Source of the DNA: an uncultured Opitutaceae bacterium
GTDB taxonomy: Bacteria; Verrucomicrobiota; Verrucomicrobiia; Opitutales; Opitutaceae
Direction: 5' to 3'
DNA: 64,000 bases
Assembly (NCBI GenBank): GCA_951813085.1
Contig: OX638348.1
Span: forward strand, 2,861,627 to 2,925,626
The position numbers and the translations under genes are program-made. Positions within the stretch are counted from its first letter, which is position 1, and each line of letters begins with the position of its first letter. Positions 54,126-59,014 of the stretch are shown here, one piece after another. The notes under the pieces are model-generated. The model was given only the letters and a program-made list of their open reading frames with translations, was not told where the DNA came from and did no database searches.

Positions 54126-56708
54126 CTACCCAGCCATCGCAGAGGCGGGGCGCTTCGCGTATTCTTCACGCCATTCTTTTAATGCAGTCATGTCGGCTAG
54201 AAGGTCGGCTGGCTCCGGCAGATCCACTGGTGATTCGGTTGGCTGCGAGTGTTCAAACCTGGAGTATTTGGTCATGAGCGAATCAAGGAAATCGCAATCT
54301 TTGGCCTTCAACTTGGCCAGATCCTTGAGCTTCAACGTATGAACTGGACGTTGGAATCGTTGAACCACCCCGCAAAGCAGATCATTTTCAATGGCTCTCT
54401 CTACAAGTATTCGAAAATCACTGCACATGGATTTCAATTCTTGTTCTACACGTTTAAGATCGCCTTTGCCGATCGCCTTCTTTACATCTTGATACCGCTG
54501 GTTAATAAGGGTGTTCAAAGCTGACTTAATGTCACCCTGGGACAATGGAATTAGTGCTGGCTCCCCAGTTCCCCAGTCCATTGAACGAATGCTCACAACA
54601 CCTGATTTGATTGGTTTCTTCTCAGCAAAATACCTGACCGTTTCCAGCAAGGACAGGCGGTGAGTAAAGACAATGACCTGCTTGTCCTGAGACAACTCGA
54701 TCAGCCTTTGAACCACGGCCTCCTCATAGCTTTGGTCAAACGAGGATATTGGATCGTCGAAGATAAGCGGGGCTTGGCTGCTCTTTCCGGTGACGTCGGC
54801 CAAAAATGCCGCGATGGAAACGATCCGATTCTCTCCCTCGCTCAGGACATCGGCGAGGCCACTTTGAGAGGCACCTCGAAGCTGGAGCTTATGAAGGACT
54901 CGGCCCTTGGAGACTTTTGACTTCACGAGCTCGACCTTTAATTGAGATGCCCTCAGGGCCTCGAGCTCTTTGTTGAATCTTTGTACGAACGCATCCGTGA
55001 TCAAGGCTTCTGCCAGCTCCCCTTTCTTCTGGGATAGGGCTTTGGTGTTGGTCAACTTCTTGGCTTCCTGAATCTGGTTCAGTAGCTTCAATCGGGTGAC
55101 TTCTTCATCAATGGCGATTCTGTGCTCAGACAACCACTTCCTGGCCTGTTGGCTGCTTAGCTTCTTCTTGATCTTCTCTCGATTGTCACTTTTGGCATCT
55201 TCGTCATATTTTGCCGCGAGTTCATCGAGCCTTTTCGACTGGGCGTTGGCTTCTTCGATCCATTTCGGTGAGAGCAGAGGATTGGGAATGGCTTCTTTGG
55301 AATCGATCCCAGGGAGCAGGTTTTTTCTAGCCTCCAATTGAACAAAGAAATCCATCACCTGGTTGGCAACTTCATCCTGTGCAATGCCAGCCGCGTCGAT
55401 ACGTGTCTTCAGCGTCTCCGATGTCGGTAGTTCCTCGATAGTTTGACTGGCAGTCTCGTATTCCTTGGCCGCATCCGTTGCGGCTTTCTGCATTTCGCCC
55501 TTCACGAAGTTTTCGAAGGAGATCAATCTTTCCTTGGCCTCCTGGGTCAATGTCTGATGGCACAAGACACAACGGGAATCATCAGAGACATTCGGGTATT
55601 CGGCTTCTTTGTAGGCAGCCGATACGGAGTAGTTCCGGGCCGCTTCCCAAAGCCCTTTCCATACATCAGACCCGATGCTTTCCAACTCGGTGCCGGAGAA
55701 CACCTTTTCCGCCGCCATATCTGCCGCTGTCTTATTGAGGATCGACTTCTTCTTGGCAGCAATGATCCGCCGGTAATTCTCGTCCGATAATTGCTCGAGA
55801 TACTTTTGGGCATCCTGGACCAGAGTGTCGATGTGCTGTTTCTGCTTTCTCAGCTGCGTCGCTTTTTCCGTCGGTGCCTGTTCGGTAAGGCGCTGCTGTA
55901 GCGTTTGCATCGCGGTCTCGTCGGCGCTGCTAAATGTACAATGCTTGTCGATGTCCTGGGGACTGATCTTGGCGCTGATGGATTCGTACCAGATGCCTTC
56001 AGGAGTTACCTTCTTGTCAGCCGGGACATTCGGCTTTTTGGACTGGTGCCGGTTGACCTCCACGTCTAGGGTCGATGCGACCTTTTCGCATGCGAGGATG
56101 AGCGAGCTGAAAAACGATAATTCCGGCGGCTCATAGCTCACCTCATCTTCGCGGCTGACAAAGACCTTGCCAACCGAGGTGTCGAAAATATCAACACTTT
56201 TAAGGTCATCGCAGATACCTTCTCCTGACCAGGTATGAGTCTTCGAAATGTCGTCCTGCTCAAACGAAATACAGGCTTTCTGTACGGCAGAGTCGGGCTT
56301 ATAGACATTGCGGTGAAGGGTACCCGCCTCGCGGGCACCGCATACATGCTTGAGAAGTCTAACGTAACCGGATTTGCCTGACCCGTTGTTGCCATAAACA
56401 ATCGTGATATTACACTTGCCAAACTCAAGTGGCTTTTTCGGAGCAAGGGCGTTTACTCCTTCGACATCACTGATTGAACACAAACGCAAGGTGTCTGCAG
56501 CGCCCTGGGAGAACACGGAAGCGTCAAAGGAACACGTCGTTTTAGGCAACTTTCCGTCGGCTTCCTGCTTACACAGGGTTGCGAGCTTGGAGACGTTTTT
56601 GTCAGTCAGAGTCAGCTCAGACTGCTGATGTAGCCAAGTAGCCGCAATCTGCAGCCACTGGGGACGTTCTGAAAACCATTTGGGCAGTGATACCGATATC
56701 CCGCTCAT
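54126..56708 (-). CDS. AAA family ATPase with zinc-hook-like motif
   Basis: 860 residues. Walker A GNNGSGKS at residues 106-113; long coiled coils either side of a CVLC hook (residues 380-383); the ABC-type signature LSEGENRIVSIAAFL and Walker B PLIFDDPISSFDQS near residues 640-680, then VIFTHRLSLLE. The C-terminal MTKYSRFEHSQP patch is shared by a group of AAA_13-like ATPases. The layout recalls RloC, but no anticodon-nuclease domain is certain. It is the first gene of an operon with sbcD and sbcC; a defence role is inferred. The start has GAGG eight bases upstream. Confidence 0.85.
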   Translation of the reverse strand: MSGISVSLPKWFSERPQWLQIAATWLHQQSELTLTDKNVSKLATLCKQEADGKLPKTTCSFDASVFSQGAADTLRLCSISDVEGVNALAPKKPLEFGKCNITIVYGNNGSGKSGYVRLLKHVCGAREAGTLHRNVYKPDSAVQKACISFEQDDISKTHTWSGEGICDDLKSVDIFDTSVGKVFVSREDEVSYEPPELSFFSSLILACEKVASTLDVEVNRHQSKKPNVPADKKVTPEGIWYESISAKISPQDIDKHCTFSSADETAMQTLQQRLTEQAPTEKATQLRKQKQHIDTLVQDAQKYLEQLSDENYRRIIAAKKKSILNKTAADMAAEKVFSGTELESIGSDVWKGLWEAARNYSVSAAYKEAEYPNVSDDSRCVLCHQTLTQEAKERLISFENFVKGEMQKAATDAAKEYETASQTIEELPTSETLKTRIDAAGIAQDEVANQVMDFFVQLEARKNLLPGIDSKEAIPNPLLSPKWIEEANAQSKRLDELAAKYDEDAKSDNREKIKKKLSSQQARKWLSEHRIAIDEEVTRLKLLNQIQEAKKLTNTKALSQKKGELAEALITDAFVQRFNKELEALRASQLKVELVKSKVSKGRVLHKLQLRGASQSGLADVLSEGENRIVSIAAFLADVTGKSSQAPLIFDDPISSFDQSYEEAVVQRLIELSQDKQVIVFTHRLSLLETVRYFAEKKPIKSGVVSIRSMDWGTGEPALIPLSQGDIKSALNTLINQRYQDVKKAIGKGDLKRVEQELKSMCSDFRILVERAIENDLLCGVVQRFQRPVHTLKLKDLAKLKAKDCDFLDSLMTKYSRFEHSQPTESPVDLPEPADLLADMTALKEWREEYAKRPASAMAG

Positions 56709-56904: not shown

Positions 56905-57043
56905 CAACCTAAAGTTTGGGAATTATGTATTTAACTTGGCAACAGGATAAACCATTTCAGTACAAAATTTGACAAAACCTTGGGAAACCCCGATAATATG
57001 TTTACTAATTACAGTATTCTGCAAAGAAGCAGGGGGAGATGCC

Positions 57044-57968
57044 ATGGGTAAGGAAGCGACAGCGTTAAGCCTGTACGAAATCATGGACTTGCATAAGGCC
57101 GGGGAGGATGCAATCCGGTATTTCGAGGGGATACGCTGGGGCGATAAGCCAGCATGCGTTGAATGTGGCTGTGATGGGAAGGTCACAGCGCAGAAGAAAG
57201 CAGGGGATTATTGGTGTGGGGATTGCCGTGGATGCTTCAATGCATTCACCAATACGCCGATGGAGCGTAGCAAGGTGGATATCCGCAAGTGGATATATGC
57301 CTCTTGCGCCCTGATGGCTTCACGCAAAGGTATCTCTCCTTTGCAACCATCCAAAGAGATTGGGGTACGGCAACGGGCGGCATGGTGCATGTTGCATCGC
57401 TCGCGATTGGCTTGCGGTGAAGACCTCCAGGCGTTGAGCGGCCACATAGGGATTGGCGAAACCTGCCTTGGCGGCAAGGAAGCCGACAAGCATGAGAGCA
57501 AGAGGCTCAAGGCAGGACGGGGGGCGGTTGGCAAGCAAGCAGCCATAGGCATGAAAGCGCGCGGCGGTCACGTTAGGGCGGTTCCAATAAGCAATACCGA
57601 TCCAACATGCCCTGCAGCCTACGGTCCATGAGAATGCTACCGCTGGAAGCCAGCTATGCGCCGATGGCCATGAGGGGCATGTAGGCCTTGGGAGGGCTTA
57701 TCGGCACGATACGGTCAATCGCAGCGCAAAGGAGCTCGTAAACGGCATGGCCCACGCAAATGGCATGGAAAGCGTCTGGGCGGTATCAAAGCGCGGTTAC
57801 AACGGGATTTATCATAGCTGGAGCAGAAAGCATTGTCGGGCTTATGTAGACGAGTTTTCATTTAGGTCGAATGAAGGGTGCTGCGGGCGGGATACGCAGG
57901 AAGGACTAAGCAGTTTGTTCAGTCGGATGGGTGGAAAAGCACTCGCCTATAAAGCATTGCCGGCTTAA
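57044..57968 (+). pseudogene. IS1595-family transposase, frameshifted
   Basis: Good ribosome-binding site AGGGGGAGAT before ATG 57044. The zinc-ribbon CVECG...CGDC (residues 40-70) and LMASRKGISPLQPSKEIGV are family marks. The first frame ends near 57630; the match continues one frame over from LQPTVHENATAG through GMESVWAVSKRGYNGIYHSW to RKHCRAYVDEFSFRSNEG. The first catalytic acid, normally in DE-T-x-x-GGKE, reads GETCLGGKE here, so an active-site residue is also lost. Transposition-dead. Confidence 0.88.
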
Positions 57969-57997
57969 TAGGGTTCTTAGCATAAGTGCCTTAGCGA

Positions 57998-58681
57998 ATG
58001 ATGCAGGGCGTTTTTTCAATTCTTAAGGATCAGCAGTGGCATTGCAGAGAATGTGGATATGGAGAATTGAATGTCGCGCAAATAGCTGGCGGTGGAGGTA
58101 TTCGGGGTTTGGAACGCGGTACAGGCTCTCGGCCTGGAATTGAAATCGAGCGTGCGAATCATTTTTGTGGAAATTGCGGCAGGACAACGCGGCAGGACAG
58201 ATGGGCAGGTCAGTTCGTATCACCTGTTCAGGGCGCAGGCATGCAGCCTAGCTTTGCCAGACGGGCATCTGGATCGTTGGGCCATCGCGATGTAATCGAG
58301 GGAACGGAACGGCCAATAAATCAACTTGCCCTTGACCGTAAGCTTCCCATGCTAGGGTGGGATGAAGAAACGAAGCAAGCGCAAGCACGGTGCAGCAACC
58401 TGCCGGGTAACGGCATTAGGGGAAATTTTCAATTGCTAAAGAGGCCTAACGGAAGCGTTAGCCATAATTCACTGAAAAGGCGTGCTTGCGAAAGCTGCTC
58501 TACACGCGGCAAACGGGGAACACCGCTTGGCATCAGGTTTTTTTATGAAGGCGATGGCAAATGGCAAGGTAACAGCAAAAAAGACAAAGATGGTCGGATC
58601 GGATGCGGATGGTTCGATTTCGACAAATGGCGGAGATTCTTGAACCAAAAATTATGGCTAGACATACACAAAGGCACCTAG
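57998..58681 (+). CDS. Probable HNH-type restriction endonuclease passenger, likely inactive
   Basis: 227 residues. The pattern matches, from memory, a family annotated as restriction endonuclease: WHCRECGYGELNVAQIAGG with zinc cysteines (C16, C19), NHFCGNCGRTTRQDRW (C57, C60), then a NHN-like stretch FQLLKRPNGSVSHNSLKRRA with ESC, and GTPLGIRFFYEG...IGCGWFDFDKWRRFLN. The expected catalytic histidine in a V-D-H-x-x-P motif is arginine here (LDRKLP, residue 114), so activity is doubtful. It lies inside the IS1595-like element. No partner methyltransferase is present. Confidence 0.6.
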   Translation: MMQGVFSILKDQQWHCRECGYGELNVAQIAGGGGIRGLERGTGSRPGIEIERANHFCGNCGRTTRQDRWAGQFVSPVQGAGMQPSFARRASGSLGHRDVIEGTERPINQLALDRKLPMLGWDEETKQAQARCSNLPGNGIRGNFQLLKRPNGSVSHNSLKRRACESCSTRGKRGTPLGIRFFYEGDGKWQGNSKKDKDGRIGCGWFDFDKWRRFLNQKLWLDIHKGT

Positions 58682-58821
58682 ATGAAGCAGTCAAAATGCT
58701 ACTAAGCGCTGGAGCTCTCCCCAATCATAGGCGGCCAATACCCAGCGCAAAAGATTTGAAACGGCGATTTGTCCTGCGGATAGATAGGTGTGGGAAACCC
58801 GCGCTAGAAGAAGTCAAATAA
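58654..58821 (+). CDS. Small frame inside the element, unassigned
   Basis: 55 residues (MARHTQRHLDEAVKMLLSAG then ALPNHRRPIPSAKDLKRR and beyond), overlapping the end of the endonuclease-like gene by 28 bases. Highly basic. It could be a small DNA-binding or toxin-antitoxin-like peptide, or chance. The overlap is the only sign of coupling. Confidence 0.3.
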   Translation: MARHTQRHLDEAVKMLLSAGALPNHRRPIPSAKDLKRRFVLRIDRCGKPALEEVK

Positions 58822-58859
58822 TGAGTGGTTTTGTCAAGTTAAATACATAATTCCCAATG

Positions 58860-58946
58860 TAAAAGCGGTCTTACACCGCGAACCTGGGAACGCCAAGCCC
58901 CAGCTTGGCAGTCGTGAATTTCAATCGCGGTGTAAAACCGCTCCTA
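58860..58946. repeat. REP-like composite palindrome
   Basis: Outer arms TAAAAGCGGTCTTACACCGC and its near complement GCGGTGTAAAACCGCTCCTA (22-bp arms, 3 mismatches) enclose an inner palindrome GCCAAGccccaGCTTGGC (58892-58909). The outer part is the widespread GTAGGAGCGG...CCGCTCCTAC-type REP. The IS1595-like element ends 5 bases before it. Confidence 0.85.
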
Positions 58947-59014
58947 CAAATATTCCTCCGAGCCCAGTCTTAGCTAAGGCTTCTACCGGTACGCGGTTTT
59001 CCCTACCCTTCAAG

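Follow-up and report, generated by a model that had tools for sequence, protein, structure and literature searches.

A decayed IS1595-family element with a restriction-endonuclease passenger, probably derived from a transporter insertion sequence lineage that ferries exchangeable restriction-modification cassettes

Why would a restriction-endonuclease-like gene ride, with no methyltransferase beside it, inside a short insertion sequence? The question is raised by positions 56918-58855 of the window (the whole 64,000-nucleotide stretch of DNA analysed), where a first reading of the letters, here called the sequence-only reading, had placed an IS1595-like element between 25-bp terminal inverted repeats. 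This proved right to the base: the element measures 1,938 bp (plus strand), its left repeat lies at 56918-56942 (plus strand) and its right repeat at 58831-58855 (minus strand), and the inverted arms reach 27 nt (56916-56942 and 58831-58857) with 96% complementarity. Zinc-ribbon and DDE_Tnp_IS1595 pieces are present together with the terminal repeats, as expected of the IS1595 family. In profile searches, the first transposase piece (57044-57631, plus strand; zinc ribbon and start of the DDE domain) matched Zn_ribbon_IS1595 (1.7e-6) and NCBIfam IS1595 (1.9e-14), and the second (57747-57968, plus strand; end of the DDE domain) matched DDE_Tnp_IS1595 (1.9e-11). The transposase frameshift and the lost acidic residue that had been suspected are both real, since the two pieces each match IS1595 models and sequence comparison places a Gly where an intact copy has an Asp, which we take to be the first catalytic residue of the family. 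Downstream lie a decayed restriction-endonuclease gene (57998-58681, plus strand; 227 aa, original start lost) and a small, conserved accessory ORF (58603-58821, plus strand; core 58669-58818) that precedes the right end. The predicted layout of the platform is terminal inverted repeat, transposase, exchangeable restriction-modification (R-M) cassette, small ORF, and terminal inverted repeat. With one transposase and one pair of terminal repeats, the element is not a composite transposon, and that candidate was rejected.

Two neighbours of the element were recorded in passing. An inverted repeat at 58858-58948 (24-nt arms, 88%), REP-like by eye, abuts the right end directly, and its arms have no further matches inside the window at up to 3 mismatches. 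On the other side, an 860-aa ORF (54126-56708, minus strand) adjoins the element; it presumably contains a P-loop motif and resembles RloC/AAA_13-type proteins, as judged by eye.

What the window copy has lost can be read from L010 (G000:C1:3934500-3940500), a related 3.03-kb element of the same genome. Its inverted arms are 33 nt long at 91%, its transposase is intact (open frame of 307 aa; DDE_Tnp_IS1595, 6e-42), and its cargo comprises an N6_N4-type methyltransferase of 338 aa (Pfam, 6.5e-26) and a full-length endonuclease of 241 aa (PADLOC PDLC03537, 6e-68), accompanied by a small ORF of 64 aa. The direct repeat ATTTGAAA stands at its borders and extends through TGG on both sides, which leaves the left border uncertain by a few bases. 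Compared with L010, 1,088 bp are absent from the window element at the junction 58006/58007, comprising the whole methyltransferase gene and the start of the endonuclease gene. L010 has the endonuclease and linked methyltransferase that make up a type II R-M system, and the window element does not; the missing methyltransferase is therefore a secondary loss. The earlier statement that the nuclease travels without a methyltransferase thus holds for the window copy but not for L010, and a number of further relatives carry fuller R-M systems.

The window passenger itself matches the PADLOC type II restriction enzyme PDLC03537 (7.6e-53), with neither a Pfam nor an NCBIfam family above cut-off and nothing in Pfam even with E relaxed to 0.1. 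The idea that the element captured a defence gene is upheld. Four aligned intact homologues (L010 and three others) have Asp-His where the window has Asp-Arg, just as the sequence-only reading had it, and an Asn is invariant in the alignment. The motif suggests HNH membership, so that the earlier call of an HNH-type restriction endonuclease stands as to restriction enzyme, now of type II, and is putative as to HNH: the PDB gave no sequence match up to E 1 and no profile match better than E 0.1, and the structure predicted for the window endonuclease was unusable (pLDDT 31). Of the 386 other genomes in a phylum sample, 3 have homologues of the endonuclease (L093-L095). Like L010, these are type II R-M systems, with an endonuclease at 28-36% identity in which Asp-His and Asn are conserved; their partner gene, however, is convergent and appears from its sequence to encode a C5 methyltransferase, whereas that of L010 is of the N6/N4 type. 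No IS1595 transposase was noticed among ORFs of at least 100 aa in their 1.5-kb flanks. The pairing of the L010 endonuclease with an N6/N4 methyltransferase looks like another reshuffling. Phage records yielded no homologue at E 1e-3, and plasmid records just an archaeal plasmid, present in two record versions, whose homologue is broken.

Cargo of this kind is common among the IS1595 elements of the genome. Searching with PF12762 gave 25 matches, which we counted as 22 loci: the seven copies of the window element and 15 others. Methyltransferase or R-M genes lie downstream in 12 of these 15, and they are of about eight kinds. Besides the type II system of L010, we found a broken BcgI-like type IIG enzyme with a specificity subunit (L009), a Type III system (L043; Mod 2e-191, Res E 0), an HSDR_N protein with an N6 methyltransferase and S (L044), an MvaI/BcnI-type endonuclease (2e-28) with an N6/N4 methyltransferase (L045, and L049 as its diverged copy), a C5 methyltransferase (6e-59) with a 397-aa protein that had no family match at the limits used (L046), an HKD-Snf2 helicase (6e-48) with a type IIG enzyme (2e-259; L047), a split N6 methyltransferase (L048), and lone N6/N4 methyltransferases (L053, L054, and L055, that of L054 being known from a PF01555 match only). 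The remaining loci, L050-L052, have no R-M cargo and a different, degenerate end sequence. Both ends were recognised in nine of the 12 cargo loci, one end in L044, and none in L048 and L055.

Such proximity was compared with that of another transposase family in the same genome. A methyltransferase follows within 6 kb on the same strand at 11 of the 15 IS1595 loci and at none of 26 rve loci, three of which fall below the Pfam cut-off (Fisher 4e-7); within 2 kb, the IS1595 count is still 10 of 15. Random sites scored 1.7% in the same test, which used PF02384 and PF01555 only and so missed L046 with its C5 enzyme. DDE_Tnp_1, taken as a further control family, had no match in the genome and was therefore uninformative. 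With hits closer together than 3 kb counted as one locus, 11 of the 25 methyltransferase loci follow an IS1595 transposase and 14 do not. As a side observation, 25 loci of the PF02384/PF01555 kind in 4.85 Mb (G000) seems many.

Close relatives also occur in metagenome-assembled genomes (MAGs) of other bacterial classes. A contig scan with the L010 transposase returned 17 loci from 11 assemblies, all MAGs, with six loci from one assembly; most carriers other than our own genome are MAGs, in which binning can err. Eight of the 17 loci hold R-M genes: a Type III system with Mod in two frames, next to a transposase 93% identical (L014), a decayed BcgI-like system (L015), a type II methyltransferase with endonuclease (L016), a methyltransferase with a type IIG enzyme (L018 and L021, the methyltransferase of L021 being cut), a methyltransferase with an SfiI-type endonuclease (1e-33; L024), a Type III remnant (L025), and a BcgI-like system (L027). 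Both ends were found for five of the eight (L014, L015, L016, L018, and L027). No R-M gene was recognised in L017, L019, L022, or L023, whose other ORFs were judged without profiles, and L020, L026, L028, L029, and L030 were left unjudged because of a contig end, a fragment, or other IS insertions.

Target duplications surround many of these relatives. Exact 8-bp duplications flush with the ends were present in eight of 15 elements tested (L016, L018, L022, L023, L027, L043, L046, and L047); L016, L018, L027, L043, L046, and L047 bear cargo, and the duplications of L027, L046, and L047 are or include T runs and weigh less. An 8-bp duplication with its border shifted by one to three bases was seen in L010, L015, and L019, that of L014 matched at 7 of 8 positions, and L045, L053, and L054 lacked a duplication of their own.

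Further from the window lineage, recognised R-M cargo becomes rare. Among 120 genomes of the host's family, ten (our own included) had a match at 1e-25; among the more distant IS1595 elements of these kin genomes, R-M genes were present in one of 11 non-own loci (L084), L088 (PDC-S27) and L090 (PDC-S02) carry candidate defence genes, and R-M was unrecognised by eye in the other eight. In six plasmid records examined out of 102 that matched, no R-M gene was annotated directly downstream of the transposase; in one of the plasmid loci, L074, an AriA/OLD-like ATPase adjoins the transposase and a DNA methyltransferase is annotated about 4 kb upstream. The distant elements L090, L088, and L074 thus carry or adjoin other candidate defence genes, which we note as an observation in its own right. 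Scans of viral contigs for the transposase, the endonuclease, and the terminal-repeat pattern gave nothing usable. In a transposase tree of 40 rows (39 labelled, 19 of them R-M), the R-M label could be explained by 5 changes, where shuffling gave a mean of 13.3 and no value as low in 500 shuffles, and the label "none" by 8, where the mean was 12.9 and 1 of 500 was as low; rows from one genome are not independent, and the result shows only that the labels cluster.

The comparison of related elements indicates where the cargo is exchanged. L010, L014, and the L009/L015 pair have the transposase and the right end in common and carry different cargo, which starts close behind the transposase stop (the L015 transposase being broken before its end) and finishes at the start of the small ORF. 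Within one genome, L043 (Type III) and L044 (HSDR_N with M and S) have transposase genes 98.6% identical and unrelated cargo. A tract of 445 bp in the window (57158-57602, plus strand) is identical to the BcgI-carrying L009, a sign of gene conversion between elements, whereas the longest identical tracts are 48 bp between L010 and the window and 45 bp between L009 and L010. Elements with different cargo therefore do recombine, and recombination between the conserved ends is the likeliest route by which cargo would be swapped.

The small ORF appears to belong to the platform. It was seen in L009, L010, L014, L015, L016, L017, and L019 besides the window; in six of the related elements it stands at the right end whatever the cargo, and in L017 right after the transposase. 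Its core of about 52 aa falls in no Pfam or NCBIfam family, and its predicted fold, a helix and a hairpin (pLDDT 77, pTM 0.32), has no credible PDB match. In L043 and L044, a small ORF after the transposase resembles it but is not among the profile matches at E 0.05, and we do not count it as a homologue. L017, whose ends were not found, and L019, whose transposase is broken, consist of a transposase and the small ORF without passenger; since such cargo-free relatives exist, the passenger does not belong to the IS as such. The sequence-only reading had named intact homologous elements without a passenger as a finding that would speak against it, and this pair supplies that finding in part. A passenger inside the ends that is absent from the base form is what defines a transporter IS, and the window element conforms to it. 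Overall, these elements appear to form a lineage of transporter ISs within the IS1595 family whose R-M cassettes can be exchanged.

How did an element with a dead transposase reach several places? Seven full-length copies of the window element occur in the genome, and they differ from the one in the window at 0 to 9 positions. All seven have three lesions in common, namely the frame break, the change of Asp to Gly, and that of His to Arg, and the differences between copies touch none of them; from these identical lesions we infer movement in trans. The flanks of the copies differ from each other, and none of the seven has a target duplication of its own, the family being known for 8-bp duplications according to the part of PMC8101967 available. 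When the seven copies and L009 were compared over 8 bp, the left flank of L003 equalled the right flank of L001, and the left flank of L004 equalled the right flank of L005; L005-left with L003-right and L003-left with L002-right matched at 7 of 8 positions. At least two exact matches arose in 0.02% of 20,000 letter shuffles (P=0.0002), and at least four at 7 of 8 positions in 0.055%. The right flank of the window copy is the left flank of L003. A clean trace of recombination between two elements is seen in L053 and L054, whose 8-bp flanks (AATTAAAA and TTTTTTAT) are reciprocally exchanged. The seven copies thus appear to have transposed with 8-bp duplications and then recombined among themselves, and the exchanged flank partners explain the lack of own duplications only indirectly.

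Taken as a whole, we hold it about 85% probable that an IS1595-family transporter IS with a complete type II R-M system gave rise to the window element as a dead, non-autonomous derivative, moved in trans, and that this lineage ferries R-M systems and swaps their cassettes. From a source element, either L010 (kept intact) or a close relative, deletion would have produced a copy without the methyltransferase and the nuclease start; point changes would then have inactivated the transposase and nuclease of that copy, which would have spread to seven places in trans. The L010 transposase is the candidate for this action and most likely the mover, via the common inverted repeats.

The decay of the window copies has a striking direction. 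Scored where L010, L014, L015, and L019 agree, the window transposase carries 86 changes: 43 A>G, 36 T>C, 3 opposite, and 4 that are not transitions. The 79 A:T to G:C transitions are spread over codon positions as 20:30:29, and 39 of them fall at an A followed by C, that is, at 40% of such sites versus 10-18% elsewhere. The nuclease region (58006-58830), with L010 alone as reference, repeats the pattern, with 66 of 91 differences being A>G or T>C and the same context hit at 32% versus 7-15%. In L009, 45 of 56 changes are of the same type, as expected from the converted tract. Changes are balanced or too few in L049 against L045, in L050-L052, in L053-L054, and in the cassettes of L009 against L015, and L055 leans mildly toward the same transitions (71 versus 40). 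The host has one MutL-family gene with an open frame of 624 aa. Bacteria deficient in mismatch repair characteristically show A:T to G:C changes at 5'-NAC, and the signature most likely arose while the element passed through a mutator cell, before its copies multiplied. GC-biased gene conversion was rejected as its cause, as only 4 of the 86 changes are not transitions, and so was a host-wide mutator, as the other decayed elements of the genome have no equally strong signature. That sequence context matters for mutation is supported, and no more than that, by the available part of PMC9280176.

Several other accounts of these data were weighed. That R-M genes and insertion sequences merely cluster in defence islands, the former not being carried by the latter, draws on the richness of this genome in methyltransferase loci, 14 of 25 without a preceding IS1595 transposase; we consider it very improbable, given that the cargo lies within one inverted-repeat pair at nine of the 12 loci of the genome, several with exact 8-bp duplications, and that rve elements have a methyltransferase downstream at 0 of 26 loci, and at 1 of the 26 when 6 kb to each side are considered. 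Still less credible, to the point of near dismissal, is the homing-like or host-dependence device that the sequence-only reading had offered for a lone nuclease. The window does have a nuclease gene and no methyltransferase, but L010 has a methyltransferase at the matching place, deleted in the window, and with the absence a secondary loss such a device is not needed; moreover, the conserved His is lost and no copy differs there, so that no cutting would be expected, and the flanks differ among copies. A homing endonuclease element proper was rejected on the same sequence grounds, the lost His and insertion at sites with different flanks.

A more serious competitor holds that the element made its seven copies before it decayed and that gene conversion later homogenised them, with no mobilisation in trans. 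The criss-cross sharing of variants among copies, the conversion with L009, and the exchanged flanks of L053 and L054 all speak for it; near-identity over the full length would nevertheless demand very frequent conversion at seven sites, and a simple recent spread is more economical, which leaves this account unlikely. As to the decay, element-directed or repeat-directed hypermutation could have stood in for a mismatch-repair-deficient cell: 79 of the 86 transposase changes are of one type, the nuclease region has the same context, nothing as strong is seen in the other decayed elements, and the MutL-family gene is open. We rate it distinctly unlikely, as the NAC context is the mark of mismatch-repair mutators, the signature is confined to one lineage, and L055 leans mildly the same way. 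Movement in trans of an already inactive copy, probably decayed in a mutator, remains our preferred account.

Plasmids, prophages, transposons, and other elements are known to carry R-M systems from one bacterium to another. To these, a small element with a single transposase that carries unrelated R-M types, in several instances between clean 8-bp target duplications, adds a concrete vehicle. We lean, somewhat beyond even odds, toward a stronger formulation, in which this IS1595 branch is a dedicated modular R-M shuttle, with type II, IIG/BcgI-like, Type III, and HsdM/S-like systems swapped at fixed junctions and among unrelated bacteria, the decayed copies living off the intact ones. Such a lineage would spread R-M systems inside bacterial groups and from one group to another, and would exchange cassettes on one platform, probably by recombination between the conserved ends. 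The cargo, if active, would in turn benefit the element, since losing the element would be costly and the cell would be defended. Whether R-M cargo stabilises a transposon by punishing loss, and how its cassettes come to be swapped, becomes testable; the decayed copies also bear a mutation signature made up almost entirely of A:T to G:C changes.

Among known systems, MITEs (short elements without genes) and other non-autonomous IS derivatives resemble the window element in that the ends are kept, the transposase is dead, and several copies exist; unlike MITEs, it is 1.94 kb long and has remnants of three genes. In the literature searched, as far as the texts were available and without Siguier 2009, an IS1595 branch that exchanges R-M cargo is apparently undescribed; we do not claim its absence from print. 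In the part of PMC9296519 available, IS1595 copies are merely counted in a table. Transporter ISs of the family are themselves known, for example MTnSag1 and tISCpe8 (PMC5704250, PMC9330008, from the parts available), and they too unite an IS1595 DDE transposase and passenger genes in one element. Those examples are described there as mobilisable elements, one with lincomycin resistance, whereas the window lineage carries several R-M types on one platform. A link between R-M systems and insertion sequences is likewise established, as far as the available text of PMC3031569 and PMC4176335 goes. PaeR7I in Escherichia coli, with IS1 and IS5, is like the window lineage an R-M system moved by insertion sequences (PMC3031569); in the portion available, however, it lies between or beside separate IS copies, whereas the window lineage carries its systems inside an element that has one transposase and ends of its own.
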